Source of the DNA: Dysidea avara
Taxonomy: Eukaryota > Porifera > Demospongiae > Dictyoceratida > Dysideidae
Direction of reading: 5' to 3'
Assembly (NCBI RefSeq): GCF_963678975.1
Contig: NC_089281.1
Coordinates: 2,968,926-3,032,925 of the forward strand
Length of the DNA: 64,000 nucleotides
Shown: one piece after another, positions 28,354 to 64,000 of the stretch
Layout: every line of letters starts with the position of its first letter
How positions within the stretch are numbered: position 1 is the stretch's first letter
The notes under the pieces: model-generated
Told to the model about the DNA's origin: nothing
What the model saw: the letters and a program-made list of their open reading frames with translations, nothing else
Database searches by the model: none
Position numbers and translations under genes: made by a program

Positions 28354-28470
28354 TAATGCACCTATCAATGTATTGCCCCACCACCCCCCCTCGGCCGTAA
28401 GTGGGGCTTTACAGGGGGAATTGACACGGAACTGCTGCCCCACTATGGGGCATTTGACGATCGTTCAGTA

Positions 28471-28725
28471 TGTAGCGGGGTATGACAATATAGCCGACGT
28501 ACCTGTCACAGCACCAAAAATGTGTTGGTAGAATTGTAGTACGCCGAGGTTCCACTAACGATTGGCGGAATAGGGGAGGATTCAAGACTGGTCGTGAAGC
28601 CAAGCACCTCGTGTTAATGCCACAATCGAACCTGATTCTTATCACGTGAACCGCATACGTGCGACATACTAATAGTGTTACATAATAGGTGTATGTAAAG
28701 GTTCTACAGTTCCTCCTCCACGACA
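28471..28725 (-). repeat. 3' LTR of the BEL/Pao element (255 bp)
   Basis: It starts TGTAGCGGGG and ends CCACGACA on the plus strand. By eye it is identical to 34160-34414. The integrase frame runs about 48 bp into it before stopping. On the coding strand, the bases just before it read cccccccggagga, so the polypurine tract is short and weak. Confidence 0.92.
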
Positions 28726-34088: not shown

Positions 34089-34105
34089 TGGTTACCACAG
34101 CACCA
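34088..34105 (-). promoter_or_regulatory. Primer-binding site of the BEL/Pao element
   Basis: On the coding strand, TGGTGCTGTGGTAACCA begins 4 nt after the 5' LTR end, where a tRNA 3'-CCA would pair. It abuts the Gag start codon, so the leader is almost absent. I do not assign the tRNA. The same first ten bases also occur within the LTR and in the extra 50-bp unit. Confidence 0.6.
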
Positions 34106-34109
34106 TAAA

Positions 34110-34414
34110 TGTAGCGGAGTATGACAATATAGCCGACGTACCTGTCACAGCACCATAAATGTAGCGGGGTATGACAATATAGCCGACGTACCTGTCACAG
34201 CACCAAAAATGTGTTGGTAGAATTGTAGTACGCCGAGGTTCCACTAACGATTGGCGGAATAGGGGAGGATTCAAGACTGGTCGTGAAGCCAAGCACCTCG
34301 TGTTAATGCCACAATCGAACCTGATTCTTATCACGTGAACCGCATACGTGCGACATACTAATAGTGTTACATAATAGGTGTATGTAAAGGTTCTACAGTT
34401 CCTCCTCCACGACA
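34110..34414 (-). repeat. 5' LTR with an extra 50-bp tandem unit at its inner end
   Basis: 34160-34414 matches the 3' LTR over 255 bp. 34110-34159 is a near-copy of the adjacent 50 bp (differences: cggag for cgggg, and ataaa for aaaaa at the inner edge). The 3' LTR has only one copy of this unit, so the two LTRs differ by the extra repeat. As written, LTR boundaries TG..CA fit either with or without the extra unit. Confidence 0.85.
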
Positions 34415-35470: not shown

Positions 35471-36073
35471 GCCGGAGTATAATTTTTCTCTGTGAATAAC
35501 AAAGAGCCAGCATTATCCATTGGTACCCATGGTGAGTGTGGACATGTCAGTTCACTATTGGGCAGAATAGGTCCTTTCATTTTCATGTGTAAGACGTCAA
35601 AATTCCCCTGCCGTTAAAACTGTACATTTTAGCTAAACTTTGCATATCTCAGCTTTCTTTCTTTCTTTTTTTTTTTTTTAAACTTTTCCTGGGTCTGACA
35701 AGGGTTATCCATTGGTACCCATGGTGAGTGTGGACATGTCAGTTCACTATTGGGCAGAATAGGTCCTTTCATTTTCATGTGTAAGGCGTCAAAATTCCCC
35801 TGCCGTTAAAACTGTACATTTTAGCTAAACTTTGCATATCTCAGCTTTCTTTCTTTTTAAAAAAAAACTTTTCCTGGGTCTGACAAGCATTATCCATTGG
35901 TACCCATGGTGAGTGTGGACATGTCAGTTCACTATTGGGCAGAATAGGTCCTTTCATTTTCATGTGTAAGGCGTCAAAATTCCCCTGCCGTTAAAACTGT
36001 ACATTTTAGCTAAACTTTGCATATCTCAGCTTTCTTTTTTTTTTTTTAAAACTTTTCCTGGGTCTGACAAGGG

Positions 36074-36214
36074 TTAACCATTGGTACCCATGGTGAGTGT
36101 GGACATGTCAGTTCACTGTTGAGTAGAATTGGTCCATATTTACGGCTTATCATGTACTTTACTTTCCCTTACTCAGGAGTATAATTTTTCTATGTGAATA
36201 ACAAAGAGCCAGCA
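36074..36214. repeat. 141-bp variant monomer (first complete of about 20)
   Basis: It shares the first ~55 bp with the standard monomer (TTAACCATTGGTACC...), then diverges: GTTGAGTAGAATTGG, ATATTTACGGCTTATCATG, and GTGAATAACAAAGAGCCAGCA at the end. Copies start near 36075, 36586, 37103, 38364, 39621, 40689, 41573, 42642, 43525, 44399, 46201, 47627, 49778, 51206, 53546, 55355, 56966, 58753, 60555 and 61981. Intervals equal 141 bp plus a whole number (2-12) of ordinary monomers. Confidence 0.9.
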
Positions 36215-39200
36215 TTATCCATTGGTACCCATGGTGAGTGTGGACATGTCAGTTCACTATTGGGCAGAATAGGTCCTTTCATTTTCATGTGTAAGGCGTC
36301 AAAATTCCCCTGCCATTAAACTGTACATTTTAGCTAAACTTTGCATATCTCAGCTTTCTTTCTTTTTTTTTTTTTTTAAACTTTTCCTGGGTCTGACAAG
36401 GGTTATCCATTGGTACCCATGGTGAGTGTGGACATGTCAGTTCACTATTGGGCGGAATATGTCCTTTCATTTTCATGTGTAAGGCGTCACAATTCCCCTA
36501 CCGTTAAAACTGTACACTTTAGCTAAACTTTGCACATCTCAGCTTTTTTTTTTTTTTTTTAAACTTTTCCTGGGTCTGACAAGGGTTAACCATTGGTACC
36601 CATGGTGAGTGTGGACATATCAGTTCACTGTTGAGTAGAATTGGTCCATATTTACGGCTTATCATGTACTTTACTTTCCCTTACTCGGAGTATAATTTTT
36701 CTCTGTGAATAACAAAGAGCCAGCATTATCCATTGGTACCCATGGTGAGTGTGGACATGTCAGTTCACTATTGGGCAGAATAGGTCCTTTCATTTTCATG
36801 TGTAAGGCGTCAAAATTCCCCTGCCGTTAAAACTGTACATTTTAGCTAAACTTTGCATATCTCAGCTTTCTTTCTTTTTTTTTTTTTTTAAACTTTTCCT
36901 GGGTCTGACAAGGGTTATCCATTGGTACCCATGGTGAGTGTGGACATGTCAGTTCACTATTGGGCGGAATAGGTCCTTTCATTTTCATGTGTAAGGCGTC
37001 AAAATTCCCCTGCCGTTAAAACTGTACATTTTAGCTAAACTTTGCATATCTCAGCTTTCTTTCTTTTTTTTTTTTTAAACTTTTCCTGGGTCTGACAAGG
37101 GTTAACCATTGGTACCCATGGTGAGTGTGGACATGTCAGTTCACTGTTGAGTAGAATTGGTCCATATTTACGGCTTATCATGTACTTTACTTTCCCTTAC
37201 TCAGGAGTATAATTTTTCTCTGTGAATAACAAAGAGCCAGCATTATCCATTGGTACCCATGGTGAGTGTGGACATGTCAGTTCACTATTGGGCAGAATAG
37301 GTCCTTTCATTTTCATGTGTAAGGCGTCAAAATTCCCCTCCCATTAAACTGTACATTTTAGCTAAACTTTGCATATCTCAGCTTTCTTTCTTTTTTTTTT
37401 TTAAACTTTTCCTGGGTCTGACAAGGGTTATCCATTGGTACCCATGGTGAGTGTGGACATGTCAGTTCACTATTGGGCGGAATATGTCCTTTCATTTTCA
37501 TGTGTAAGGCGTCACAATTCCCCTGCCGTTAAAACTGTACACTTTAGCTAAACTTTGCACATCTCAGCTTTTTTTTTTTTTTTTTTAACTTTTCCTGGGT
37601 CTGACAAGGGTTATCCATTGGTACCCATGGTGAGTGTGGACATGTCAGTGCACTATTGGGCAGAATAGGCCCTTTCATTTTCATGTGTAAGGCGTCACAA
37701 TTCCCCTGCCGTTAAAACTGTACATTTTAGCTAAACTTTGCATATCTCAGCTTTCTTTCTTTTAAAAAAAAAAAACTTTTCCTGGGTCTGACAAGCGTTA
37801 TCCATTGGTACCCATGGTGAGTGTGGACATGTCAGTTCACTATTGGGCAGAATAGGTCCTTTCATTTTCATGTGTAAGGCGTCAAAATTCCCCTGCCGTT
37901 AAAACTGTACATTTTAGCTAAACTTTGCATATCTCAGCTTTCTTTTTTTTTTTTTTTTTAAAACTTTTCCTGGGTCTGACAAGGGTTATCCATTGGTACC
38001 CATGGTGAGTGTGGACATGTCAGTGCACTATTGGGCAGAATAGGCCCTTTCATTTTCATGTGTAAGGCGTCACAATTCCCCTGCCGTTAAAACTGTACAT
38101 TTTAGCTAAACTTTGCATATCTCAGCTTTCTTTCTTTTTTTTTTTTTTTAAACTTTTCCTGGGTCTGACAAGGGTTATCCATTGGTACCCATGGTGAGTG
38201 TGGACATGTCAGTTCACTATTGGGCGGAATAGGTCCTTTCATTTTCATGTGTAAGGCGTCAAAATTCCCCTGCCGTTAAAACTGTACATTTTAGCTAAAC
38301 TTTGCATATCTCAGCTTTCTTTCTTTTTTTTTTTTTTTAAACTTTTCCTAGGTCTGACAAGGGTTAACCATTGGTACCCATGGTGAGTGTGGACATGTCA
38401 GTTCACTGTTGAGTAGAATTGGTCCATATTTACGGCTTATCATGTACTTTACTTTCCCTTACTCAGGAGTATAATTTTTCTCTGTGAATAACAAAGAGCC
38501 AGCATTATCCATTGGTACCCATGGTGAGTGTGGACATGTCAGTTCACTATTGGGCAGAATAGGTCCTTTCATTTTCATGTGTAAGGCGTCAAAATTCCCC
38601 TCCCATTAAACTGTACATTTTAGCTAAACTTTGCATATCTCAGCTTTCTTTCTTTTTTTTTTTAAAACTTTTCCTGGGTCTGACAAGGGTTATCCATTGG
38701 TACCCATGGTGAGTGTGGACATGTCAGTTCACTATTGGGCGGAATATGTCCTTTCATTTTCATGTGTAAGGCGTCACAATTCCCCTGCCGTTAAAACTGT
38801 ACACTTTAGCTAAACTTTGCACATCTCAGCTTTTTTTTTTTTTTTTTAACTTTTCCTGGGTCTGACAAGGGTTATCCATTGGTACCCATGGTGAGTGTGG
38901 ACATGTCAGTGCACTATTGGGCAGAATAGGCCCTTTCATTTTCATGTGTAAGGCGTCACAATTCCCCTGCCGTTAAAACTGTACATTTTAGCTAAACTTT
39001 GCATATCTCAGCTTTCTTTCTTTTTAAAAAAAAAAACTTTTCCTGGGTCTGACAAGCGTTATCCATTGGTACCCATGGTGAGTGTGGACATGTCAGTTCA
39101 CTATTGGGCAGAATAGGTCCTTTCATTTTCATGTGTAAGGCGTCAAAATTCCCCTGCCGTTAAAACTGTACATTTTAGCTAAACTTTGCATATCTCAGCT

Positions 39201-42200
39201 TTCTTTTTTTTTTTTTTTTAAACTTTTCCTGGGTCTGACAAGGGTTATCCATTGGTACCCATGGTGAGTGTGGACATGTCAGTGCACTATTGGGCAGAAT
39301 AGGCCCTTTCATTTTCATGTGTAAGGCGTCACAATTCCCCTGCCGTTAAAACTGTACATTTTAGCTAAACTTTGCATATCTCAGCTTTCTTTCTTTTTAA
39401 AAAAAAAAAACTTTTCCTGGGTCTGACAAGCGTTATCCATTGGTACCCATGGTGAGTGTGGACATGTCAGTTCACTATAAGGCAGAATAGGTCCTTTCAT
39501 TTTCATGTGTAAGGCGTCAAAATTCCCCTGCCGTTAAAACTGTACATTTTAGCTAAACTTTGCATATCTCAGCTTTCTTTCTTTTTTTTTTTTTTAAACT
39601 TTTCCTGGGTCTGACAAGGGTTAACCATTGGTACCCATGGTGAGTGTAGACATGTCAGTTCACTGTTGAGTAGAATTGGTCCATATTTACGGCTTATCAT
39701 GTACTTTACTTTCCCTTACTCAGAGTATAATTTTTCTCTGTGAATAACAAAGAGCCAGCATTATCCATTGGTACCCATGGTGAGTGTGGACATGTCAGTT
39801 CACTATTGGGCAGAATAGGTCCTTTCATTTTCATGTGTAAGGCGTCAAAATTCCCCTGCCGTTAAAACTGTACATTTTAGCTAAACTTTGCATATCTCAG
39901 CTTTCTTTCTTTTTTTTTTTTTTAAACTTTTCCTGGGTCTGACAAGGGTTATCCATTGGTACCCATGGTTAGTGTGGACATGTCAGTTCACTATTGGGCA
40001 GAATAGGTCTTTTCATTTTCATGTGTAAGGCGTCAAAATTCCCCTGCCGTTAAAACTGTACATTTTAGCTAAACTTTGCACATCTCAGCTTTCTTTCTTT
40101 TCTTTTTTTAAAAACTTTTCCTGGGTCTGACAAGGGTTATCCATTGGTACCCATGGTAAGTGTGGACATGTCAGTTCACTATTGGGCGGAATATGTCCTT
40201 TCATTTTCATGTGTAAGGCGTCACAATTCCCCTGCCGTTAAAACTGTACACTTTAGCTAAACTTTGCACATCTCAGATTTTTTTTTTTTTAACTTTTCCT
40301 GGGTCTGACAAGGGTTATCCATTGGTACCCATGGTGAGTGTGGACATGTCAGTGCACTATTGGGCAGAATAGGCCCTTTCATTTTCATGTGTAAGGCGTC
40401 ACAATTCCCCTGCCGTTAAAACTGTACATTTTAGCTAAACTTTGCATATCTCAGCTTTCTTTCTTTTTTAAAAAAAAAAACTTTTCCTGGGTCTGACAAG
40501 CATTATCCATTGGTACCCATGGTGAGTGTGGACATGTCAGTTCACTATTGGGCAGAATAGGTCCTTTCATTTTCATGTGTAAGGCGTTACAATTCCCCTG
40601 CCGTTAAAACTGTACATTTTAGCTAAACTTTGCATATCTCAGCTTTCTTTTTTTTTTTTTTTTAAACTTTTCCTGGGTCTGACAAGGGTTAACCATTGGT
40701 ACCCATGGTGAGTGTGGACATGTCAGTTCACTGTTGAGTAGAATTGGTCCATATTTACGGCTTATCATGTACTTTACTTTCCCTTACTCAGGAGTATAAT
40801 TTTTCTCTGTGAATAACAAAGAGCCAGCATTATCCATTGGTACCCATGGTGAGTGTGGACATGTCAGTTCACTATTGGGCAGAATAGGTCCTTTCATTTT
40901 CATGTGTAAGGCGTCAAAATTCCCCTGCCATTAAACTGTACATTTTAGCTAAACTTTGCATATCTCAGCTTTCTTTCTTTTTTTTTTTTAAACTTTTCCT
41001 GGGTCTGACAAGGGTTATCCATTGGTACCCATGGTGAGTGTGGACATGTCAGTTCACTATTGGGCGGAATATGTCCTTTCATTTTCATGTGTAAGGCGTC
41101 ACAATTCCCCTGCCGTTAAAACTGTACACTTTAGCTAAACTTTGCACATCTCAGCTTTTTTTTTTTTTTTTTTTAACTTTTCCTGGGTCTGACAAGGGTT
41201 ATCCATTGGTACCCATGGTGAGTGTGGACATGTCAGTGCACTATTGGGCAGAATAGGCCCTTTCATTTTCATGTGTAAGGCGTCACAATTCCCCTGCCGT
41301 TAAAACTGTACATTTTAGCTAAACTTTGCATATCTCAGCTTTCTTTCTTTTTAAAAAAAAAAACTTTTCCTGGGTCTGACAAGCGTTATCCATTGGTACC
41401 CATGGTGAGTGTGGACATGTCAGTTCACTATTGGGCAGAATAGGTCCTTTCATTTTCATGTGTAAGGCGTCAAAATTCCCCTGCCGTTAAAACTGTACAT
41501 TTTAGCTAAACTTTGCATATCTCAGCTTTCTTTTTTTTTTTTTTTTTTAACTTTTCCTGGGTCTGACAAGGGTTAACCATTGGTACCCATGGTGAGTGTA
41601 GACATGTCAGTTCACTGTTGAGTAGAATTGGTCCATATTTACGGCTTATCATGTACTTTACTTTCCCTTACTCAGAGTATAATTTTTCTCTGTGAATAAC
41701 AAAGAGCCAGCATTATCCATTGGTACCCATGGTGAGTGTGGACATGTCAGTTCACTATTGGGCAGAATAGGTCCTTTCATTTTCATGTGTAAGGCGTCAA
41801 AATTCCCCTGCCGTTAAAACTGTACATTTTAGCTAAACTTTGCATATCTCAGCTTTCTTTCTTTTTTTTTTTTTTAAATTTTTCCTGGGTCTGACAAGGG
41901 TTATCCATTGGTACCCATGGTGAGTGTGGACATGTCAGTTCACTATTGGTCAGAATAGGTCTTTTCATTTTCATGTGTAAGGCGTCAAAATTCCCCTGCC
42001 GTTAAAACTGTACATTTTAGCTAAACTTTGCATATCTCAGCTTTCTTTCTTTTTTTTTTTTTAAAACTTTTCCTGGGTCTGACAAGGGTTATCCATTGGT
42101 ACCCATGGTGAGTGTGGACATGTCAGTTCACTATTGGGCGGAATATGTCCTTTCATTTTCATGTGTAAGGCGTCACAATTCCCCTGCCGTTAAAACTGTA

Positions 42201-44398
42201 CACTTTAGCTAAACTTTGCACATCTCAGATTTTTTTTTTTTTTAACTTTTCCTGGGTCTGACAAGGGTTATCCATTGGTACCCATGGTGAGTGTGGACAT
42301 GTCAGTGCACTATTGGGCAGAATAGGCCCTTTCATTTTCATGTGTAAGGCGTCACAATTCCCCTGCCGTTAAAACTGTACATTTTAGCTAAACTTTGCAT
42401 ATCTCAGGTTTCTTTCTTTTTAAAAAAAAAAAACTTTTCCTGGGTCTGACAAGCATTATCCATTGGTACCCATGGTGAGTGTGGACATGTCAGTTCACTA
42501 TTGGGCAGAATAGGTCCTTTCATTTTCATGTGTAAGGCGTCAAAATTCCCCTGCCGTTAAAACTGTACATTTTAGCTAAACTTTGCATATCTCAGCTTTC
42601 TTTTTTTTTTTTTTTTAAACTTTTCCTGGGTCTGACAAGGGTTAACCATTGGTACCCATGGTGAGTGTGGACATGTCAGTTCACTGTTGAGTAGAATTGG
42701 TCCATATTTACGGCTTATCATGTACTTTACTTTCCCTTACTCAGGAGTATAATTTTTCTCTGTGAATAACAAAGAGCCAGCATTATCCATTGGTACCCAT
42801 GGTGAGTGTGGACATGTCAGTTCACTATTGGGCAGAATAGGTCCTTTCATTTTCATGTGTAAGGCGTCAAAATTCCCCTGCCATTAAACTGTACATTTTA
42901 GCTAAACTTTGCATATCTCAGCTTTCTTTCTTTTTTTTTTAAAAACTTTTCCTGGGTCTGACAAGGGTTATCCATTGGTACCCATGGTGAGTGTGGACAT
43001 GTCAGTTCACTATTGGGCGGAATATGTCCTTTCATTTTCATGTGTAAGGCGTCACAATTCCCCTGCCGTTAAAACTGTACACTTTAGCTAAACTTTGCAC
43101 ATCTCAGCTTTTTTTTTTTTTTTTTTTAACTTTTCCTGGGTCTGACAAGGGTTATCCATTGGTACCCATGGTGAGTGTGGACATGTCAGTGCACTATTGG
43201 GCAGAATAGGCCCTTTCATTTTCATGTGTAAGGCGTCACAATTCCCCTGCCGTTAAAACTGTACATTTTAGCTAAACTTTGCATATCTCAGCTTTCTTTC
43301 TTTTTAAAAAAAAAAACTTTTCCTGGGTCTGACAAGCGTTATCCATTGGTACCCATGGTGAGTGTGGACATGTCAGTTCACTATTGGGCAGAATAGGTCC
43401 TTTCATTTTCATGTGTAAGGCGTCAAAATTCCCCTGCCGTTAAAACTGTACATTTTAGCTAAACTTTGCATATCTCAGCTTTCTTTTTTTTTTTTTTTTT
43501 TAACTTTTCCTGGGTCTGACAAGGGTTAACCATTGGTACCCATGGTGAGTGTAGACATGTCAGTTCACTGTTGAGTAGAATTGGTCCATATTTACGGCTT
43601 ATCATGTACTTTACTTTCCCTTACTCAGAGTATAATTTTTCTCTGTGAATAACAAAGAGCCAGCATTATCCATTGGTACCCATGGTGAGTGTGGACATGT
43701 CAGTTCACTATTGGGCAGAATAGGTCCTTTCATTTTCATGTGTAAGGCGTCAAAATTCCCCTGCCGTTAAAACTGTACATTTTAGCTAAACTTTGCATAT
43801 CTCAGCTTTCTTTCTTTTTTTTTTTTTTAAACTTTTCCTGGGTCTGACAAGGGTTATCCATTGGTACCCATGGTAAGTGTGGACATGTCAGTTCACTATT
43901 GGGCGGAATATGTCCTTTCATTTTCATGTGTAAGGCGTCACAATTCCCCTGCCGTTAAAACTGTACACTTTAGCTAAACTTTGCACATCTCAGATTTTTT
44001 TAACTTTTCCTGGGTCTGACAAGGGTTATCCATTGGTACCCATGGTGAGTGTGGACATGTCAGTGCACTATTGGGCAGAATAGGCCCTTTCATTTTCATG
44101 TGTAAGGCGTCACAATTCCCCTGCCGTTAAAACTGTACATTTTAGCTAAACTTTGCATATCTCAGCTTTCTTTCTTTTTTAAAAAAAAAACTTTTCCTGG
44201 GTCTGACAAGCATTATCCATTGGTACCCATGGTGAGTGTGGACATGTCAGTTCACTATTGGGCAGAATAGGTCCTTTCATTTTCATGTGTAAGGCGTTAC
44301 AATTCCCCTGCCGTTAAAACTGTACATTTTAGCTAAACTTTGCATATCTCAGCTTTCTTTTTTTTTTTTTTAAAACTTTTCCTGGGTCTGACAAGGGT

Positions 44399-47300
44399 TA
44401 ACCATTGGTACCCATGGTGAGTGTGGACATGTCAGTTCACTGTTGAGTAGAATTGGTACATATTTACGGCTTATCATGTACTTTACTTTCCCTTACTCAG
44501 GAGTATAATTTTTCTCTGTGAATAACAAAGAGCCAGCATTATCCATTGGTACCCATGGTGAGTGTGGACATGTCAGTTCACTATTGGGCAGAATAGGTCC
44601 TTTCATTTTCATGTGTAAGGCGTCAAAATTCCCCTGCCATTAAACTGTACATTTTAGCTAAACTTTGCATATCTCAGCTTTCTTTCTTTTTTTTTTTTAA
44701 ACTTTTCCTGGGTCTGACAAGGGTTATCCATTGGTACCCATGGTGAGTGTGGAAATGTCAGTTCACTATTGGGCGGAATATGTCCTTTCATTTTCATGTG
44801 TAAGGCGTCACAATTCCCCTGCCGTTAAAACTGTACACTTTAGCTAAACTTTGCACATCTCAGCTTTTTTTTTTAACTTTTCCTGGGTCTGACAAGGGTT
44901 ATCCATTGGTACCCATGGTGAGTGTGGACATGTCAGTGCACTATTGGGCAGAATAGGCCCTTTCATTTTCATGTGTAAGGCGTCACAATTCCCCTGCCGT
45001 TAAAACTGTACATTTTAGCTAAACTTTGCATATCTCAGCTTTCTTTCTTTTTAAAAAAAAAAACTTTTCCTGGGTCTGACAAGCGTTATCCATTGGTACC
45101 CATGGTGAGTGTGGACATGTCAGTTCACTATAAGGCAGAATAGGTCCTTTCATTTTCATGTGTAAGGCGTCAAAATTCCCCTGCCGTTAAAACTGTACAT
45201 TTTAGCTAAACTTTGCATATCTCAGCTTTCTTTCTTTTTTTTTTTTTAAACTTTTCCTGGGTCTGACAAGGGTTATCCATTGGTACCCATGGTGAGTGTG
45301 GACATGTCAGTTCACTATTGGGCGGAATATGTCCTTTCATTTTCATGTGTAAGGCGTTACAATTCCCCTGCCGTTAAAACTGTACACTTTAGTTAAACTT
45401 TGCACATCTCAGATTTTTTTTTTTTAACTTTTCCTGGGTCTGACAAGGGTTATCCATTGGTACCCATGGTGAGTGTGGACATGTCAGTGCACTATTGGGC
45501 AGAATAGGCCCTTTCATTTTCATGTGTAAGGCGTCACAATTCCCCTGCCGTTAAAACTGTACATTTTAGCTAAACTTTGCATATCTCAGGTTTATTTCTT
45601 TTTTTTTTTTTAAAACTTTTCCTGGGTCTGACAAGGGTTATCCATTGGTACCCATGGTAAGTGTGGACATGTCAGTTCACTATTGGGCGGAATATGTCCT
45701 TTCATTTTCATGTGTAAGGCGTCACAATTCCCCTGCCGTTAAAACTGTACACTTTAGCTAAACTTTGCATATCTCAGCTTTCTTTCTTTTTTTTTTTTTA
45801 AAACTTTTCCTGGGTCTGACAAGGGTTATCCATTGGTACCCATGGTAAGTGTGGACATGTCAGTTCACTATTGGGCAGAATAGGCCCTTTCATTTTCATG
45901 TGTAAGGCGTCACAATTCCCCTGCCGTTAAAACTGTACATTTTAGCTAAACTTTGCATATCTCAGCTTTCTTTCTTTTTTAAAAAAAAAAACTTTTCCTG
46001 GGTCTGACAAGCATTATCCATTGGTACCCATGGTGAGTGTGGACATGTCAGTTCACTATTGGGCAGAATAGGTCCTTTCATTTTCATGTGTAAGGCGTTA
46101 CAATTCCCCTGCCGTTAAAACTGTACATTTTAGCTAAACTTTGCATATCTCAGCTTTCTTTTTTTTTTTTTTTTAAACTTTTCCTGGGTCTGACAAGGGT
46201 TAACCATTGGTACCCATGGTGAGTGTGGACATGTCAGTTCACTGTTGAGTAGAATTGGTCCATATTTACGGCTTATCATGTACTTTACTTTCCCTTACTC
46301 AGGAGTATAATTTTTCTCTGTGAATAACAAAGAGCCAGCATTATCCATTGGTACCCATGGTGAGTGTGGACATGTCAGTTCACTATTGGGCAGAATAGGT
46401 CCTTTCATTTTCATGTGTAAGGCGTCAAAATTCCCCTGCCATTAAACTGTACATTTTAGCTAAACTTTGCATATCTCAGCTTTCTTTCTTTTTTTTTTTT
46501 AAACTTTTCCTGGGTCTGACAAGGGTTATCCATTGGTACCCATGGTGAGTGTGGACATGTCAGTTCACTATTGGGCGGAATATGTCCTTTCATTTTCATG
46601 TATAAGGCGTCACAATTCCCCTGCCGTTAAAACTGTACACTTTAGCTAAACTTTGCACATCTCAGCTTTTTTTTTTAACTTTTCCTGGGTCTGACAAGGG
46701 TTATCCATTGGTACCCATGGTGAGTGTGGACATGTCAGTGCACTATTGGGCAGAATAGGCCCTTTCATTTTCATGTGTAAGGCGTCACAATTCCCCTGCC
46801 GTTAAAACTGTACATTTTAGCTAAACTTTGCATATCTCAGCTTTCTTTCTTTTTAAAAAAAAAAAACTTTTCCTGGGTCTGACAAGCGTTATCCATTGGT
46901 ACCCATGGTGAGTGTGGACATGTCAGTTCACTATAAGGCAGAATAGGTCCTTTCATTTTCATGTGTAAGGCGTCAAAATTCCCCTGCCGTTAAAACTGTA
47001 CATTTTAGCTAAACTTTGCATATCTCAGCTTTCTTTCTTTTTTTTTTTTTTAAACTTTTCCTTGGTCTGACAAGGGTTATCCATTGGTACCCATGGTGAG
47101 TGTGGACATGTCAGTTCACTATTGGGCGGAATATGTCCTTTCATTTTCATGTGTAAGGCGTTACAATTCCCCTGCCGTTAAAACTGTACACTTTAGCTAA
47201 ACTTTGCACATCTCAGATTTTTTTTTTTTAACTTTTCCTGGGTCTGACAAGGGTTATCCATTGGTACCCATGGTGAGTGTGGACATGTCAGTGCACTATT

Positions 47301-47700
47301 GGGCAGAATAGGCCCTTTCATTTTCATGTGTAAGGCGTCACAATTCCCCTGCCGTTAAAACTGTACATTTTAGCTAAACTTTGCATATCTCAGGTTTCTT
47401 TCTTTTTAAAAAAAAAACTTTTCCTGGGTCTGACAAGCATTATCCATTGGTACCCATGGTGAGTGTGGACATGTCAGTTCACTATTGGGCAGAATAGGTC
47501 CTTTCATTTTCATGTGTAAGGCGTCAAAATTCCCCTGCCGTTAAAACTGTACATTTTAGCTAAACTTTGCATATCTCAGCTTTCTTTTTTTTTTTTTTTT
47601 AAACTTTTCCTGGGTCTGACAAGGGTTAACCATTGGTACCCCATGGTGAGTTTGGACATGTCAGTTCACTGTTGAGTAGAATTGGTCCATATTTACGGCT
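44399..47700. repeat. Satellite block duplicated at 58753-62054
   Basis: Three successive variant monomers (44399, 46201, 47627) recur at 58753, 60555 and 61981, each offset by exactly 14354 bp. They share private marks: GGTACATATT in the first, and CCCCATGGTGAGTTTGG in the third. Equal offsets including homopolymer tracts imply a recent block duplication. Confidence 0.85.
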
Positions 47701-50700: not shown

Positions 50701-53700
50701 GGGCGGAATATGTCCTTTCATTTTCATGTGTAAGGCGTTACAATTCCCCTGCCGTTAAAACTGTACACTTTAGCTAAACTTTGCACATCTCAGATTTTTT
50801 TTTTTTAACTTTTCCTGGGTCTGACAAGGGTTATCCATTGGTACCCATGGTGAGTGTGGACATGTCAGTGCACTATTGGGCAGAATAGGCCCTTTCATTT
50901 TCATGTGTAAGGCGTCACAATTCCCCTGCCGTTAAAACTGTACATTTTAGCTAAACTTTGCATATCTCAGGTTTCTTTCTTTTTAAAAAAAAAAAACTTT
51001 TCCTGGGTCTGACAAGCATTATCCATTGGTACCCATGGTGAGTGTGGACATGTCAGTTCACTATTGGGCAGAATAGGTCCTTTCATTTTCATGTGTAAGG
51101 CGTCAAAATTCCCCTGCCGTTAAAACTGTACATTTTAGCTAAACTTTGCATATCTCAGCTTTCTTTTTTTTTTTTTTTTAAACTTTTCCTGGGTCTGACA
51201 AGGGTTAACCATTGGTACCCCATGGTGAGTTTGGACATGTCAGTTCACTGTTGAGTAGAATTGGTCCATATTTACGGCTTATCATGTACTTTACTTTCCC
51301 TTACTCAGGAGTATAATTTTTCTCTGTGAATAACAAAGAGCCAGCATTATCCATTGGTACCCATGGTGAGTGTGGACATGTCAGTTCACTATTGGGCAGA
51401 ATAGGTCCTTTCATTTTCATGTGTAAGGCGTCAAAATTCCCCTGCCATTAAACTGTACATTTTAGCTAAACTTTGCATATCTCAGCTTTCTTTCTTTTTT
51501 TTTTTAAAACTTTTCCTGGGTCTGACAAGGGTTATCCATTGGTACCCATGGTGAGTGTGGACATGTCAGTTCACTATTGGGCGGAATATGTCCTTTCATT
51601 TTCATGTGTAAGGCGTCACAATTCCCCTGCCGTTAAAACTGTACACTTTAGCTAAACTTTGCACATCTCAGCTTTTTTTTTTTTTTTTTTTAACTTTTCC
51701 TGGGTCTAACAAGGGTTATCCATTGGTACCCATGGTGAGTGTGGACATGTCAGTGCACTATTGGGCAGAATAGGCCCTTTCATTTTCATGTGTAAGGCGT
51801 CACAATTCCCCTGCCGTTAAAACTGTACATTTTAGCTAAACTTTGCATATCTCAGCTTTCTTTCTTTTTAAAAAAAAAAACTTTTCCTGGGTCTGACAAG
51901 CGTTATCCATTGGTACCCATGGTGAGTGTGGACATGTCAGTTCACTATTGGGCGGAATATGTCCTTTCATTTTCATGTGTAAGGCGTCACAATTCCCCTG
52001 CCGTTAAAACTGTACACTTTAGCTAAACTTTGCACATCTCAGCTTTTTTTTTAAACTTTTCCTTGGTCTGACAAGGGTGATCCATTGGTACCCATGGTGA
52101 GTGTGGACATGTCAGTGCACTATTGGGCAGAATAGGCCCTTTCATTTTCATGTGTAAGGCGTCACAATTCCCCTGCCGTTAAAACTGTACATTTTAGCTA
52201 AACTTTGCATATCTCAGCTTTCTTTCTTTTTAAAAAAAAAAAACTTTTCCTGGGTCTGACAAGCGTTATCCATTGGTACCCATGGTGAGTGTGGACATGT
52301 CAGTTCACTATAAGGCAGAATAGGTCCTTTCATTTTCATGTGTAAGGCGTCAAAATTCCCCTGCCGTTAAAACTGTACATTTTAGCTAAACTTTGCATAT
52401 CTCAGCTTTCTTTCTTTTTTTTTTTTTTAAACTTTTCCTGGGTCTGACAAGGGTTATCCATTGGTACCCATGGTGAGTGTGGACATGTCAGTTCACTATT
52501 GGGCGGAATATGTCCTTTCATTTTCATGTATAAGGCGTCACAATTCCCCTGCCGTTAAAACTGTACACTTTAGCTAAACTTTGCACATCTCAGCTTTTTT
52601 TTTTAACTTTTCCTGGGTCTGACAAGGGTTATCCATTGGTACCCATGGTGAGTGTGGACATGTCAGTGCACTATTGGGCAGAATAGGCCCTTTCATTTTC
52701 ATGTGTAAGGCGTCACAATTCCCCTGCCGTTAAAACTGTACATTTTAGCTAAACTTTGCATATCTCAGCTTTCTTTCTTTTTAAAAAAAAAAAACTTTTC
52801 CTGGGTCTGACAAGCGTTATCCATTGGTACCCATGGTGAGTGTGGACATGTCAGTTCACTATAAGGCAGAATAGGTCCTTTCATTTTCATGTGTAAGGCG
52901 TCAAAATTCCCCTGCCGTTAAAACTGTACATTTTAGCTAAACTTTGCATATCTCAGCTTTCTTTCTTTTTTTTTTTTTAAACTTTTCCTGGGTCTGACAA
53001 GGGTTATCCATTGGTACCCATGGTGAGTGTGGACATGTCAGTTCACTATTGGGCGGAATATGTCCTTTCATTTTCATGTGTAAGGCGTTACAATTCCCCT
53101 GCCGTTAAAACTGTACACTTTAGCTAAACTTTGCACATCTCAGATTTTTTTTTTTTAACTTTTCCTGGGTCTGACAAGGGTTATCCATTGGTACCCATGG
53201 TGAGTGTGGACATGTCAGTGCACTATTGGGCAGAATAGGCCCTTTCATTTTCATGTGTAAGGCGTCACAATTCCCCTGCCGTTAAAACTGTACATTTTAG
53301 CTAAACTTTGCATATCTCAGGTTTCTTTCTTTTTAAAAAAAAAAAACTTTTCCTGGGTCTGACAAGCATTATCCATTGGTACCCATGGTGAGTGTGGACA
53401 TGTCAGTTCACTATTGGGCAGAATAGGTCCTTTCATTTTCATGTGTAAGGCGTCAAAATTCCCCTGCCGTTAAAACTGTACATTTTAGCTAAACTTTGCA
53501 TATCTCAGCTTTCTTTTTTTTTTTTTTTTAAACTTTTCCTGGGTCTGACAAGGGTTAACCATTGGTACCCCATGGTGAGTTTGGACATGTCAGTTCACTG
53601 TTGAGTAGAATTGGTCCATATTTACGGCTTATCATGTACTTTACTTTCCCTTACTCAGGAGTATAATTTTTCTCTGTGAATAACAAAGAGCCAGCATTAT

Positions 53701-56700
53701 CCATTGGTACCCATGGTGAGTGTGGACATGTCAGTTCACTATTGGGCAGAATAGGTCCTTTCATTTTCATGTGTAAGGCGTCAAAATTCCCCTGCCATTA
53801 AACTGTACATTTTAGCTAAACTTTGCATATCTCAGCTTTCTTTCTTTTTTTTTTTAAAACTTTTCCTGGGTCTGACAAGGGTTATCCATTGGTACCCATG
53901 GTGAGTGTGGACATGTCAGTTCACTATTGGGCGGAATATGTCCTTTCATTTTCATGTGTAAGGCGTCACAATTCCCCTGCCGTTAAAACTGTACACTTTA
54001 GCTAAACTTTGCACATCTCAGCTTTTTTTTTTTTTTTTTTTAACTTTTCCTGGGTCTAACAAGGGTTATCCATTGGTACCCATGGTGAGTGTGGACATGT
54101 CAGTGCACTATTGGGCAGAATAGGCCCTTTCATTTTCATGTGTAAGGCGTCACAATTCCCCTGCCGTTAAAACTGTACATTTTAGCTAAACTTTGCATAT
54201 CTCAGCTTTCTTTCTTTTTAAAAAAAAAAACTTTTCCTGGGTCTGACAAGCGTTATCCATTGGTACCCATGGTGAGTGTGGACATGTCAGTTCACTATTG
54301 GGCGGAATATGTCCTTTCATTTTCATGTGTAAGGCGTCACAATTCCCCTGCCGTTAAAACTGTACACTTTAGCTAAACTTTGCACATCTCAGCTTTTTTT
54401 TAAAACTTTTCCTTGGTCTGACAAGGGTGATCCATTGGTACCCATGGTGAGTGTGGACATGTCAGTGCACTATTGGGCAGAATAGGCCCTTTCATTTTCA
54501 TGTGTAAGGCGTCACAATTCCCCTGCCGTTAAAACTGTACATTTTAGCTAAACTTTGCATATCTCAGCTTTCTTTCTTTTTAAAAAAAAAAAACTTTTCC
54601 TGGGTCTGACAAGCGTTATCCATTGGTACCCATGGTGAGTGTGGACATGTCAGTTCACTATAAGGCAGAATAGGTCCTTTCATTTTCATGTGTAAGGCGT
54701 CAAAATTCCCCTGCCGTTAAAACTGTACATTTTAGCTAAACTTTGCATATCTCAGCTTTCTTTCTTTTTTTTTTTTTTAAACTTTTCCTGGGTCTGACAA
54801 GGGTTATCCATTGGTACCCATGGTGAGTGTGGACATGTCAGTTCACTATTGGGCGGAATATGTCCTTTCATTTTCATGTGTAAGGCGTTACAATTCCCCT
54901 GCCGTTAAAACTGTACACTTTAGCTAAACTTTGCACATCTCAGATTTTTTTTTTTTAACTTTTCCTGGGTCTGACAAGGGTTATCCATTGGTACCCATGG
55001 TGAGTGTGGACATGTCAGTGCACTATTGGGCAGAATAGGCCCTTTCATTTTCATGTGTAAGGCGTCACAATTCCCCTGCCGTTAAAACTGTACATTTTAG
55101 CTAAACTTTGCATATCTCAGGTTTCTTTCTTTTTAAAAAAAAAAAAACTTTTCCTGGGTCTGACAAGCATTATCCATTGGTACCCATGGTGAGTGTGGAC
55201 ATGTCAGTTCACTATTGGGCAGAATAGGTCCTTTCATTTTCATGTGTAAGGCGTCAAAATTCCCCTGCCGTTAAAACTGTACATTTTAGCTAAACTTTGC
55301 ATATCTCAGCTTTCTTTTTTTTTTTTTTAAACTTTTCCTGGGTCTGACAAGGGTTAACCATTGGTACCCCATGGTGAGTTTGGACATGTCAGTTCACTGT
55401 TGAGTAGAATTGGTCCATATTTACGGCTTATCATGTACTTTACTTTCCCTTACTCAGGAGTATAATTTTTCTCTGTGAATAACAAAGAGCCAGCATTATC
55501 CATTGGTACCCATGGTGAGTGTGGACATGTCAGTTCACTATTGGGCAGAATAGGTCCTTTCATTTTCATGTGTAAGGCGTCAAAATTCCCCTGCCATTAA
55601 ACTGTACATTTTAGCTAAACTTTGCATATCTCAGCTTTCTTTCTTTTTTTTTTTAAAACTTTTCCTGGGTCTGACAAGGGTTATCCATTGGTACCCATGG
55701 TGAGTGTGGACATGTCAGTTCACTATTGGGCGGAATATGTCCTTTCATTTTCATGTGTAAGGCGTCACAATTCCCCTGCCGTTAAAACTGTACACTTTAG
55801 CTAAACTTTGCACATCTCAGCTTTTTTTTTTTTTTTTTTAACTTTTCCTGGGTCTAACAAGGGTTATCCATTGGTACCCATGGTGAGTGTGGACATGTCA
55901 GTGCACTATTGGGCAGAATAGGCCCTTTCATTTTCATGTGTAAGGCGTCACAATTCCCCTGCCGTTAAAACTGTACATTTTAGCTAAACTTTGCATATCT
56001 CAGCTTTCTTTCTTTTTAAAAAAAAAAACTTTTCCTGGGTCTGACAAGCGTTATCCATTGGTACCCATGGTGAGTGTGGACATGTCAGTTCACTATTGGG
56101 CGGAATATGTCCTTTCATTTTCATGTGTAAGGCGTTACAATTCCCCTGCCGTTAAAACTGTACACTTTAGCTAAACTTTGCACATCTCAGATTTTTTTTT
56201 TTTAACTTTTCCTGGGTCTGACAAGGGTTATCCATTAGTACCCATGGTGAGTGTGGACATGTCAGTGCACTATTGGGCAGAATAGGCCCTTTCATTTTCA
56301 TGTGTAAGGCGTCACAATTCCCCTGCCGTTAAAACTGTACATTTTAGCTAAACTTTGCATATCTCAGGTTTCTTTCTTTTAAAAAAAAAAAAAACTTTTC
56401 CTGGGTCTGACAAGCATTATCCATTGGTACCCATGGTGAGTGTGGACATGTCAGTGCACTATTGGGCAGAATAGGCCCTTTCATTTTCATGTGTAAGGCG
56501 TCACAATTCCCCTGCCGTTAAAACTGTACATTTTAGCTAAACTTTGCATATCTCAGCTTTCTTTCTTTTTAAAAAAAAAAACTTTTCCTGGGTCTGACAA
56601 GCGTTATCCATTGGTACCCATGGTGAGTGTGGACATGTCAGTTCACTATTGGGCGGAATATGTCCTTTCATTTTCATGTGTAAGGCGTCACAATTCCCCT

Positions 56701-59700
56701 GCCGTTAAAACTGTACACTTTAGCTAAACTTTGCACATCTCAGCTTTTTTTTTAAACTTTTCCTTGGTCTGACAAGGGTGATCCATTGGTACCCATGGTG
56801 AGTGTGGACATGTCAGTGCACTATTGGGCAGAATAGGCCCTTTCATTTTCATGTGTAAGGCGTCAAAATTCCCCTGCCGTTAAAACTGTACATTTTAGCT
56901 AAACTTTGCATATCTCAGCTTTCTTTTTTTTTTTTTTTTAAACTTTTCCTGGGTCTGACAAGGGTTAACCATTGGTACCCCATGGTGAGTTTGGACATGT
57001 CAGTTCACTGTTGAGTAGAATTGGTCCATATTTACGGCTTATCATGTACTTTACTTTCCCTTACTCAGGAGTATAATTTTTCTCTGTGAATAACAAAGAG
57101 CCAGCATTATCCATTGGTACCCATGGTGAGTGTGGACATGTCAGTTCACTATTGGGCAGAATAGGTCCTTTCATTTTCATGTGTAAGGCGTCAAAATTCC
57201 CCTGCCATTAAACTGTACATTTTAGCTAAACTTTGCATATCTCAGCTTTCTTTCTTTTTTTTTTTAAAACTTTTCCTGGGTCTGACAAGGGTTATCCATT
57301 GGTACCCATGGTGAGTGTGGACATGTCAGTTCACTATTGGGCGGAATATGTCCTTTCATTTTCATGTGTAAGGCGTCACAATTCCCCTGCCGTTAAAACT
57401 GTACACTTTAGCTAAACTTTGCACATCTCAGCTTTTTTTTTTTTTTTTTTTAACTTTTCCTGGGTCTAACAAGGGTTATCCATTGGTACCCATGGTAAGT
57501 GTGGACATGTCAGTGCACTATTGGGCAGAATAGGCCCTTTCATTTTCATGTGTAAGGCGTCACAATTCCCCTGCCGTTAAAACTGTACATTTTAGCTAAA
57601 CTTTGCATATCTCAGCTTTCTTTCTTTTTAAAAAAAAAAACTTTTCCTGGGTCTGACAAGCGTTATCCATTGGTACCCATGGTGAGTGTGGACATGTCAG
57701 TTCACTATTGGGCGGAATATGTCCTTTCATTTTCATGTATAAGGCGTCACAATTCCCCTGCCGTTAAAACTGTACACTTTAGCTAAACTTTGCACATCTC
57801 AGCTTTTTTTTTTAACTTTTCCTGGGTCTGACAAGGGTTATCCATTGGTACCCATGGTGAGTGTGGACATGTCAGTGCACTATTGGGCAGAATAGGCCCT
57901 TTCATTTTCATGTGTAAGGCGTCACAATTCCCCTGCCGTTAAAACTGTACATTTTAGCTAAACTTTGCATATCTCAGCTTTCTTTCTTTTTAAAAAAAAA
58001 AAACTTTTCCTGGGTCTGACAAGCGTTATCCATTGGTACCCATGGTGAGTGTGGACATGTCAGTTCACTATAAGGCAGAATAGGTCCTTTCATTTTCATG
58101 TGTAAGGCGTCAAAATTCCCCTGCCGTTAAAACTGTACATTTTAGCTAAACTTTGCATATCTCAGCTTTCTTTCTTTTTTTTTTTTTTAAACTTTTCCTG
58201 GGTCTGACAAGGGTTATCCATTGGTACCCATGGTGAGTGTGGACATGTCAGTTCACTATTGGGCGGAATATGTCCTTTCATTTTCATGTGTAAGGCGTTA
58301 CAATTCCCCTGCCGTTAAAACTGTACACTTTAGCTAAACTTTGCACATCTCAGATTTTTTTTTTTTAACTTTTCCTGGGTCTGACAAGGGTTATCCATTG
58401 GTACCCATGGTGAGTGTGGACATGTCAGTGCACTATTGGGCAGAATAGGCCCTTTCATTTTCATGTGTAAGGCGTTACAATTCCCCTGCCGTTAAAACTG
58501 TACATTTTAGCTAAACTTTGCACATCTCAGATTTTTTTTTTTAACTTTTCCTGGGTCTGACAAGGGTTATCCATTGGTACCCATGGTGAGTGTGGACATG
58601 TCAGTTCACTATTGGGCAGAATAGGTCCTTTCATTTTCATGTGTAAGGCGTTACAATTCCCCTGCCGTTAAAACTGTACATTTTAGCTAAACTTTGCATA
58701 TCTCAGCTTTCTTTTTTTTTTTTTTAAAACTTTTCCTGGGTCTGACAAGGGTTAACCATTGGTACCCATGGTGAGTGTGGACATGTCAGTTCACTGTTGA
58801 GTAGAATTGGTACATATTTACGGCTTATCATGTACTTTACTTTCCCTTACTCAGGAGTATAATTTTTCTCTGTGAATAACAAAGAGCCAGCATTATCCAT
58901 TGGTACCCATGGTGAGTGTGGACATGTCAGTTCACTATTGGGCAGAATAGGTCCTTTCATTTTCATGTGTAAGGCGTCAAAATTCCCCTGCCATTAAACT
59001 GTACATTTTAGCTAAACTTTGCATATCTCAGCTTTCTTTCTTTTTTTTTTTTAAACTTTTCCTGGGTCTGACAAGGGTTATCCATTGGTACCCATGGTGA
59101 GTGTGGAAATGTCAGTTCACTATTGGGCGGAATATGTCCTTTCATTTTCATGTGTAAGGCGTCACAATTCCCCTGCCGTTAAAACTGTACACTTTAGCTA
59201 AACTTTGCACATCTCAGCTTTTTTTTTTAACTTTTCCTGGGTCTGACAAGGGTTATCCATTGGTACCCATGGTGAGTGTGGACATGTCAGTGCACTATTG
59301 GGCAGAATAGGCCCTTTCATTTTCATGTGTAAGGCGTCACAATTCCCCTGCCGTTAAAACTGTACATTTTAGCTAAACTTTGCATATCTCAGCTTTCTTT
59401 CTTTTTAAAAAAAAAAACTTTTCCTGGGTCTGACAAGCGTTATCCATTGGTACCCATGGTGAGTGTGGACATGTCAGTTCACTATAAGGCAGAATAGGTC
59501 CTTTCATTTTCATGTGTAAGGCGTCAAAATTCCCCTGCCGTTAAAACTGTACATTTTAGCTAAACTTTGCATATCTCAGCTTTCTTTCTTTTTTTTTTTT
59601 TTAAACTTTTCCTGGGTCTGACAAGGGTTATCCATTGGTACCCATGGTGAGTGTGGACATGTCAGTTCACTATTGGGCGGAATATGTCCTTTCATTTTCA

Positions 59701-62700
59701 TGTGTAAGGCGTTACAATTCCCCTGCCGTTAAAACTGTACACTTTAGTTAAACTTTGCACATCTCAGATTTTTTTTTTTTAACTTTTCCTGGGTCTGACA
59801 AGGGTTATCCATTGGTACCCATGGTGAGTGTGGACATGTCAGTGCACTATTGGGCAGAATAGGCCCTTTCATTTTCATGTGTAAGGCGTCACAATTCCCC
59901 TGCCGTTAAAACTGTACATTTTAGCTAAACTTTGCATATCTCAGGTTTCTTTCTTTTTTTTTTTTAAAACTTTTCCTGGGTCTGACAAGGGTTATCCATT
60001 GGTACCCATGGTAAGTGTGGACATGTCAGTTCACTATTGGGCGGAATATGTCCTTTCATTTTCATGTGTAAGGCGTCACAATTCCCCTGCCGTTAAAACT
60101 GTACACTTTAGCTAAACTTTGCATATCTCAGCTTTCTTTCTTTTTTTTTTTTTAAAACTTTTCCTGGGTCTGACAAGGGTTATCCATTGGTACCCATGGT
60201 AAGTGTGGACATGTCAGTTCACTATTGGGCAGAATAGGCCCTTTCATTTTCATGTGTAAGGCGTCACAATTCCCCTGCCGTTAAAACTGTACATTTTAGC
60301 TAAACTTTGCATATCTCAGCTTTCTTTCTTTTTTAAAAAAAAAAACTTTTCCTGGGTCTGACAAGCATTATCCATTGGTACCCATGGTGAGTGTGGACAT
60401 GTCAGTTCACTATTGGGCAGAATAGGTCCTTTCATTTTCATGTGTAAGGCGTTACAATTCCCCTGCCGTTAAAACTGTACATTTTAGCTAAACTTTGCAT
60501 ATCTCAGCTTTCTTTTTTTTTTTTTTTTAAACTTTTCCTGGGTCTGACAAGGGTTAACCATTGGTACCCATGGTGAGTGTGGACATGTCAGTTCACTGTT
60601 CAGTAGAATTGGTCCATATTTACGGCTTATCATGTACTTTACTTTCCCTTACTCAGGAGTATAATTTTTCTCTGTGAATAACAAAGAGCCAGCATTATCC
60701 ATTGGTACCCATGGTGAGTGTGGACATGTCAGTTCACTATTGGGCAGAATAGGTCCTTTCATTTTCATGTGTAAGGCGTCAAAATTCCCCTGCCATTAAA
60801 CTACATTTTAGCTAAACTTTGCATATCTCAGCTTTCTTTCTTTTTTTTTTTTAAACTTTTCCTGGGTCTGACAAGGGTTATCCATTGGTACCCATGGTGA
60901 GTGTGGACATGTCAGTTCACTATTGGGCGGAATATGTCCTTTCATTTTCATGTATAAGGCGTCACAATTCCCCTGCCGTTAAAACTGTACACTTTAGCTA
61001 AACTTTGCACATCTCAGCTTTTTTTTTTAACTTTTCCTGGGTCTGACAAGGGTTATCCATTGGTACCCATGGTGAGTGTGGACATGTCAGTGCACTATTG
61101 GGCAGAATAGGCCCTTTCATTTTCATGTGTAAGGCGTCACAATTCCCCTGCCGTTAAAACTGTACATTTTAGCTAAACTTTGCATATCTCAGCTTTCTTT
61201 CTTTTTAAAAAAAAAAAACTTTTCCTGGGTCTGACAAGCGTTATCCATTGGTACCCATGGTGAGTGTGGACATGTCAGTTCACTATAAGGCAGAATAGGT
61301 CCTTTCATTTTCATGTGTAAGGCGTCAAAATTCCCCTGCCGTTAAAACTGTACATTTTAGCTAAACTTTGCATATCTCAGCTTTCTTTCTTTTTTTTTTT
61401 TTTAAACTTTTCCTTGGTCTGACAAGGGTTATCCATTGGTACCCATGGTGAGTGTGGACATGTCAGTTCACTATTGGGCGGAATATGTCCTTTCATTTTC
61501 ATGTGTAAGGCGTTACAATTCCCCTGCCGTTAAAACTGTACACTTTAGCTAAACTTTGCACATCTCAGATTTTTTTTTTTTAACTTTTCCTGGGTCTGAC
61601 AAGGGTTATCCATTGGTACCCATGGTGAGTGTGGACATGTCAGTGCACTATTGGGCAGAATAGGCCCTTTCATTTTCATGTGTAAGGCGTCACAATTCCC
61701 CTGCCGTTAAAACTGTACATTTTAGCTAAACTTTGCATATCTCAGGTTTCTTTCTTTTTAAAAAAAAAAAACTTTTCCTGGGTCTGACAAGCATTATCCA
61801 TTGGTACCCATGGTGAGTGTGGACATGTCAGTTCACTATTGGGCAGAATAGGTCCTTTCATTTTCATGTGTAAGGCGTCAAAATTCCCCTGCCGTTAAAA
61901 CTGTACATTTTAGCTAAACTTTGCATATCTCAGCTTTCTTTTTTTTTTTTTTTTAAACTTTTCCTGGGTCTGACAAGGGTTAACCATTGGTACCCCATGG
62001 TGAGTTTGGACATGTCAGTTCACTGTTGAGTAGAATTGGTCCATATTTACGGCTTATCATGTACTTTACTTTCCCTTACTCAGGAGTATAATTTTTCTCT
62101 GTGAATAACAAAGAGCCAGCATTATCCATTGGTACCCATGGTGAGTGTGGACATGTCAGTTCACTATTGGGCAGAATAGGTCCTTTCATTTTCATGTGTA
62201 AGGCGTCAAAATTCCCCTGCCATTAAACTGTACATTTTAGCTAAACTTTGCATATCTCAGCTTTCTTTCTTTTTTTTTTTAAAACTTTTCCTGGGTCTGA
62301 CAAGGGTTATCCATTGGTACCCATGGTGAGTGTGGACATGTCAGTTCACTATTGGGCGGAATATGTCCTTTCATTTTCATGTGTAAGGCGTCACAATTCC
62401 CCTGCCGTTAAAACTGTACACTTTAGCTAAACTTTGCACATCTCAGCTTTTTTTTTTTTTTTTTTAACTTTTCCTGGGTCTAACAAGGGTTATCCATTGG
62501 TACCCATGGTGAGTGTGGACATGTCAGTGCACTATTGGGCAGAATAGGCCCTTTCATTTTCATGTGTAAGGCGTCACAATTCCCCTGCCGTTAAAACTGT
62601 ACATTTTAGCTAAACTTTGCATATCTCAGCTTTCTTTCTTTTTAAAAAAAAAAACTTTTCCTGGGTCTGACAAGCGTTATCCATTGGTACCCATGGTGAG

Positions 62701-64000
62701 TGTGGACATGTCAGTTCACTATTGGGCGGAATATGTCCTTTCATTTTCATGTGTAAGGCGTCACAATTCCCCTGCCGTTAAAACTGTACACTTTAGCTAA
62801 ACTTTGCACATCTCAGCTTTTTTTTTAAACTTTTCCTTGGTCTGACAAGGGTGATCCATTGGTACCCATGGTGAGTGTGGACATGTCAGTGCACTATTGG
62901 GCAGAATAGGCCCTTTCATTTTCATGTGTAAGGCGTCACAATTCCCCTGCCGTTAAAACTGTACATTTTAGCTAAACTTTGCATATCTCAGCTTTCTTTC
63001 TTTTTAAAAAAAAAAAACTTTTCCTGGGTCTGACAAGCGTTATCCATTGGTACCCATGGTGAGTGTGGACATGTCAGTTCACTATAAGGCAGAATAGGTC
63101 CTTTCATTTTCATGTGTAAGGCGTCAAAATTCCCCTGCCGTTAAAACTGTACATTTTAGCTAAACTTTGCATATCTCAGCTTTCTTTCTTTTTTTTTTTT
63201 TTAAACTTTTCCTGGGTCTGACAAGGGTTATCCATTGGTACCCATGGTGAGTGTGGACATGTCAGTTCACTATTGGGCGGAATATGTCCTTTCATTTTCA
63301 TGTATAAGGCGTCACAATTCCCCTGCCGTTAAAACTGTACACTTTAGCTAAACTTTGCACATCTCAGCTTTTTTTTTTAACTTTTCCTGGGTCTGACAAG
63401 GGTTATCCATTGGTACCCATGGTGAGTGTGGACATGTCAGTGCACTATTGGGCAGAATAGGCCCTTTCATTTTCATGTGTAAGGCGTCACAATTCCCCTG
63501 CCGTTAAAACTGTACATTTTAGCTAAACTTTGCATATCTCAGCTTTCTTTCTTTTTAAAAAAAAAAAACTTTTCCTGGGTCTGACAAGCGTTATCCATTG
63601 GTACCCATGGTGAGTGTGGACATGTCAGTTCACTATAAGGCAGAATAGGTCCTTTCATTTTCATGTGTAAGGCGTCAAAATTCCCCTGCCGTTAAAACTG
63701 TACATTTTAGCTAAACTTTGCATATCTCAGCTTTCTTTCTTTTTTTTTTTTTAAACTTTTCCTGGGTCTGACAAGGGTTATCCATTGGTACCCATGGTGA
63801 GTGTGGACATGTCAGTTCACTATTGGGCGGAATATGTCCTTTCATTTTCATGTGTAAGGCGTTACAATTCCCCTGCCGTTAAAACTGTACACTTTAGCTA
63901 AACTTTGCACATCTCAGATTTTTTTTTTTTAACTTTTCCTGGGTCTGACAAGGGTTATCCATTGGTACCCATGGTGAGTGTGGACATGTCAGTGCACTAT

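Follow-up and report, generated by a model that had tools for sequence, protein, structure and literature searches.

A 46-kb satellite array in the sponge Dysidea avara that probably grew from the repeat-bearing end of a composite transposon

Where does a large satellite array come from, and why should a unit of fixed length recur in it at irregular intervals? These questions are raised by the window analysed here, a stretch of 64,000 nucleotides (C10:2968926-3032925) in the genome assembly of the demosponge Dysidea avara (550.8 Mb in 108 contigs, designated C10 and so on), which ends inside such an array. A sequence-only reading of the window had described a 141-bp monomer recurring about 20 times between runs of ordinary monomers. 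We consider it probable that a composite transposon, consisting of a repeat-bearing part (the "core") and a non-coding element (INT), inserted here once, and that unequal exchange, acting at two scales, subsequently enlarged its tandem-repeat end on the spot.

The window and the next 19 kb of C10 were searched with anchors representing the left end, the monomer and the right end. The whole array measures 46,059 bp (C10:3004399-3050457, or 35474-81532 counted from the start of the window) and overruns the window end by about 17.5 kb. It is built of 35 complete head-to-tail blocks, each composed of a left end, n full monomers of about 188 bp (n = 2-12) and a right end. Block order and number were read from the assembled sequence alone, and the numbers of full monomers, from block 1 to block 35, are 3, 2, 2, 6, 6, 5, 4, 5, 4, 4, 9, 7, 11, 7, 12, 9, 8, 9, 9, 7, 12, 9, 8, 12, 9, 6, 3, 3, 6, 3, 5, 4, 6, 4 and 4, giving 223 in the whole array. 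The part inside the window (35474..64000, forward strand) covers the whole of blocks 1-20 and the first part of block 21. The left end of block 1 (35474..35516, forward strand; GGAGTATAATTTTTCTCTGTGAATAACAAAGAGCCAGC...) forms the left edge of the array and is the same end as that found on dispersed copies. It is followed by copies 1 and 2 of the ordinary monomer (35517..35893, forward strand), of 192 and 185 bp; the usual length is 175-189 bp, the difference lying mostly in a T/A run.

Measured between the last monomer anchor of one block and the first anchor of the following block, 26 of the 34 joints span 141 bp and the other 8 span 140 bp. What had been taken for a 141-bp monomer is this joint, formed by the right end of one block and the left end of the next. 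Twenty joints lie inside the window, as the earlier count had it, and the interval series reported with them (2, 2, 6, 6, ..., 7 monomers) matches blocks 2 to 20 exactly. The first of them (36078..36218, forward strand) comprises a partial last monomer, the right end (..ATTTACGGCTTATCATGTACTTTACTTTCCCTTACT), CAG and the next left end. Between CTTACT and GAGTATAA, the joint bases are CAG at 26 joints, CG at 4 and CA at 4. The joint is fixed in length because the repeated unit is a dispersed mobile element, whose repeat-bearing end has probably been multiplied about 35-fold on the spot at C10.

The monomer itself is not a chance pattern, since a 33-base monomer pattern (at most 3 mismatches) gave 250 matches in the genome against 0 for the reversed control. 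The 83-kb stretch carrying the array accounts for 221 of these matches (137 in the window), and 29 lie elsewhere. Similarly, a 30-base left-end pattern (at most 3 mismatches) matched 50 times (control 0), 35 times in the array and 15 times elsewhere. In these genome-wide searches, the large array was found on C10 only.

The dispersed cores consist of a left end, about 1-5 full monomers of about 188 bp and a right end, and they have both ends in common with the array blocks. Core ends were readable at 16 loci (L011-L026) at up to 11 mismatches, and one of them, L026, needed the full 11. The core abuts INT exactly at 10 of these loci, on C2, C3, C4, C5, C7 (L022), C9, C11, C12, C82 and C104. The order core-INT-core occurs on C2, C5 and C82 (with a truncated second core on C82), and C2 also carries a core-core tandem (joint TTACTC-AGTATAG). 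The small contigs C82 (L017:5734-6471) and C104 (L019) end in pieces of core and INT, in inverted order on C82; these are perhaps alternative haplotypes or assembly ends. By eye, the core with INT on C3 (L015/L039) and an INT-core on C7 (L035) both adjoin similar frames resembling long interspersed nuclear elements. Two further loci, L027 (C8 near 25.8 Mb) and L028 (C9 near 10.24 Mb), each show six weak monomer-like anchors (11/34 mismatches), spaced mostly about 163-170 bp apart and without core ends, and are possibly an old tandem relative of the monomer.

INT is a 1.52-kb non-coding transposon with 15-bp terminal inverted repeats; its sequence begins with CAATACCAGAAATTT or CATTACCAG and closes with the inverted counterpart. 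A genome search gave 626 first-look candidates, of which 40 were scored, and at least 56 matches were listed; among the matches listed, most start at the INT start and carry no core letters. We read the flanks of 19 standalone copies chosen among these matches (L045-L064, L066-L083), and 17 of them had an identical single base on both sides (binomial 2e-8, assuming 0.27 per site). Two further insertions, compared by eye, also fit a 1-bp duplication: an INT nested inside another INT on C11, relative to the unbroken sequence, and an INT inside a 31-bp satellite on C4 (L072/L073), relative to the repeat consensus. We know of no named DNA-transposon superfamily with a 1-bp target duplication, and a literature search on this feature found no relevant paper; the single-base duplication of INT may merit separate study. 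The INT beside the array has no frame longer than 69 aa; the frames of a diverged C7 copy were only listed, and no search for an autonomous relative was made.

That core and INT can move together is seen on C12, where their flanks match a paralogue at L031:8820 with no gap between them, i.e., an empty site. The empty paralogue reads GAATGAGTCG-GAAGCTC; the filled site reads GAATGAGTCG, then an insert running from CCTATAATTTTTC through core and INT to GGTATTG, then GGAAGCTC. Core and INT are both absent from the empty site, and one G is doubled in the filled one, a 1-bp target duplication. The C10 array has the same layout: it opens with a core left end and closes with a core right end, directly after which comes one full INT (C10:3050458-3051980; L029:159-1681). 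On its left the flank ..TTTTTTTTTG gives way to CCGGAGTATAA; on its right CTTACT is followed by INT and then GGGGTGTG. A G thus stands on both sides of array and INT, which is compatible with a 1-bp duplication but is slight evidence, as loci vary in the bases preceding AGTATAA.

Two other classes of mobile element were considered for these sequences and rejected. In a long terminal repeat (LTR) element, the internal part lies between two LTR copies and the target duplication is 4-6 bp. No core follows INT on C10, C3, C12 or C11, and the empty site of C12 gives 1 bp and one core, which does not fit a core acting as LTR. Helitrons have TC...CTRR ends and no target duplication; the ends found here are AGTATAA...TTACT and CAATACC...GGTATTG, and a 1-bp duplication is present, which does not fit a Helitron or Helentron. 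Searches for phage DNA, Rfam families and transfer RNAs returned no matches.

To follow the history of the array, monomers were typed at 12 sites, with gaps counted as differences, which resolved 18 haplotypes in the 223 monomers of the array; for comparison, 13 dispersed loci (L011-L023) supplied 53 monomers spaced 150-210 bp apart. Four array haplotypes (61 array monomers) are present in 31 of the 53 dispersed monomers. The five commonest array-private types (43, 38, 20, 19 and 18 array monomers) occur in none of the 53. The shared haplotypes occupy the first place in 34 of 35 blocks and the last place in 21 of 35, as against 6 of 153 interior places (Fisher 3e-31), and private haplotypes fill the block interiors. 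The same distribution was obtained with one block per near-identical group (first 25/26, last 14/26, interior 6/94; 5e-18). This polarity of haplotypes within one genome favours derivation of the array from the element, rather than the reverse.

A second layering was observed along the array. Haplotypes shared with dispersed copies account for 20 of the 41 monomers in the left edge zone (35474..44497, forward strand; blocks 1-10, of 2-6 monomers), compared with 25 of 144 in blocks 11-26 and 16 of 38 in blocks 27-35. The central zone, of which the window holds 44498..64000 (forward strand; blocks 11 to part of 21), has 6-12 monomers per block and consists of recent multi-block duplications. Thus, the same-size blocks 15/21/24 and 17/23 are without substitution, blocks 11/19, 12/14/20 and 16/22/25 show 0-2, and exact repeats of 1.5-2.7 kb recur in the array at offsets of 5.8, 8.1, 10.8, 13.1 and 16.5 kb. 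Written as monomer types, some blocks (GABEDFC, HABABEDFC and HABABEABEDFC, for example) look as if groups of two or three monomers had been duplicated within them. Overall, the edges look older and the middle younger, with layering at two scales, within blocks and within the array.

These observations bear on the direction of growth. The sequence-only reading had taken short intervals on the left and long ones on the right as a directional history of unequal exchange. The gradient does exist in the window (Spearman 0.79, blocks 1-20) but disappears over all 35 blocks (0.07), because the window cuts an array whose blocks are short at both edges and long in the middle. Block size falls along blocks 18-35 (-0.72 against index) and follows the distance to the nearer array edge (0.77 over 35 blocks); as neighbouring blocks are not independent, the P values of these correlations are formal only. 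Left-to-right growth was dropped once the rest of the array was read, while unequal exchange was retained, as it fits the whole-monomer steps and the runs of blocks that recur with 0-2 substitutions. Where an array is cut off, a gradient seen in it can mislead.

We propose the following course of events. One core with its INT would have inserted at C10, and the core would then have been duplicated head to tail. Growth may have proceeded by out-of-register exchange, with few-monomer duplications within blocks and duplications of whole runs of blocks. The middle would have been renewed, probably in bursts, the edges and block ends being left as older layers. No coding was found in the array, which most likely has no host function.

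Several results weigh against this proposal or narrow it. Joint insertion of core and INT was demonstrated at one locus only (C12), and 6 of the 16 loci (L016, L021, L023, L024, L025 and L026) yielded no INT next to the core. At C10, the duplicated G fits or does not fit depending on where the variable left terminus is placed. Single-site variants of the private types are seen in dispersed monomers (of the 53, 7 have G at one site, and 6 and 5 have C at two further sites), so the private types are in part new combinations and not all new mutations. Finally, constant-rate unequal exchange was simulated in two sets, one of 12 parameter sets (971 kept runs) and one of 24, of which those that kept more than 15 runs, 10 in all, are reported (485 kept runs; runs outside 20-60 blocks were dropped). 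The edge correlation of 0.77 was reached in 0 of 971 and 0 of 485 runs of these crude models, and the simulated means lay between -0.26 and 0.07. Uniform steady exchange, in the forms tried, is thus insufficient.

A bolder form of the proposal would make core and INT an undescribed group of animal DNA transposons with single-base target duplications, in which the composite brings a satellite of its own and head-to-tail cores remain once INT has been excised from core-INT-core, regularly seeding higher-order arrays. The INT end bases C, A and G could account for each of the joint sequences CAG, CG and CA; as excision remnants these three bases are weak evidence, and we regard this extension as rather doubtful.

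The head-to-tail cores might instead have come from rolling-circle replication or reinserted extrachromosomal circles. The near-uniform joints and the core-core tandem on C2 speak for circles. However, a single multimer insertion would give uniform blocks, whereas the blocks here vary widely in size and show growth both in steps of one to three monomers and through duplicated runs of blocks, which is what exchange predicts. We hold circles to be an unlikely source of the array, although one could still have made the first tandem.

Still less do we expect that an ordinary satellite came first, and that INT inserted beside it and carried short pieces around the genome. The array is by far the largest monomer reservoir (221 of 250 matches) and INT is present in high copy number, as such a history would have it. 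Against this, the dispersed cores have their two boundaries where the blocks have theirs, carry mostly block-end haplotypes and, in the 53 monomers compared, include none of the five main private types. Moreover, an INT jump to the end of a core would repeat the core's last T, whereas the base after INT on C10, C3, C12 and C11 is G, A, G and A, and the C12 empty site lacks core and INT alike. That misassembly is partly responsible for the order or number of blocks is very improbable: central stretches identical over up to 2.7 kb could have been mis-joined, but the 83,375 bases spanning the array contain no N, the edge blocks differ from one another, and non-array sequence is reached on both sides.

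The suggestion that the array marks a centromere or heterochromatin found no support. Centromeric satellites carry CENP-A chromatin and usually form arrays on most chromosomes. Here, a large array was found at one place only, and a CENP-B-box-like pattern (at most 1 mismatch) had 0 matches in the window. The sequence offers no evidence for a centromere, while still being compatible with a chromosome-specific one.

Other repeats were also found in the window. A BEL/Pao retrotransposon (window 28470-34414, reverse strand) lies about 1 kb to the left of the array; it has a pair of 256-bp direct repeats (LTRs) that are identical, together with frames resembling gag-pol (Peptidase_A17, DUF1759, RVT_1 and Integrase_H2C2), and it looks recent. 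A 31-bp repeat (CTGTAGAGAGTTCAGCTACAAACAAGTCACC-like) forms two arrays, at window 5219-7263 and 10087-11696, in which longer periods of 112-173 bp are also present; this 31-bp repeat likewise flanks the INT copy on C4 mentioned above.

One genome thus shows several stages on the way from transposon to satellite: dispersed copies resembling the ancestor, the core-core tandem on C2 and the 46-kb higher-order array. In the literature searched, we found no paper joining Dysidea avara with satellite DNA, nor Porifera with satellite DNA, tandem repeat and sponge. The D. avara genome paper describes 575 Mb in 162 scaffolds and 15 chromosomes from PacBio HiFi and Omni-C data (PMC12909245); that assembly differs in size and scaffold number from the one used here and may provide an independent check.

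The route from transposon end to satellite is already known. In Drosophila virilis, the approximately 220-bp repeats near the end of Tetris (TIR-220) form satellite-like arrays of up to 66 copies; as here, a non-coding inverted-repeat transposon has a few tandem repeats near its end and also gives rise to long arrays, but there the monomers alone are amplified and lie inside the terminal inverted repeats, whereas here amplification takes in entire blocks, ends included, and the inverted repeats belong to the adjoining INT (PMC4079207). Short arrays in dispersed elements also occasionally grow long in the Ogre-derived satellites of Lathyrus sativus, although these come from LTR retrotransposons and are found mainly at primary constrictions on many chromosomes, and not at one locus (PMC7004042). 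The Helitron-associated satellites of Crassostrea gigas, likewise from a marine invertebrate, are dispersed and combine conserved end boxes with a short central array of approximately 165-bp monomers; they have Helitron ends and no inverted-repeat partner in that description, whereas INT has inverted repeats and mostly a 1-bp duplication (PMC8268682). Plant Cassandra, a small non-autonomous element, forms long tandem arrays in which LTR and internal domain alternate, while the internal-like INT occurs here once, at the right end (PMC7215508). Further transposon-borne short arrays that grew into satellites are tabulated elsewhere (PMC6947457). A divergent periphery around a homogeneous interior is shared with alpha-satellite higher-order arrays, which are centromeric and of megabase scale, unlike this 46-kb array with its higher-order unit of variable length and no evidence for a centromere (PMC9859433). 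The array is therefore a good, mostly ordinary case of transposon-derived satellite DNA, and what is special to it is the amplification of whole ended blocks together with the layering at two scales.

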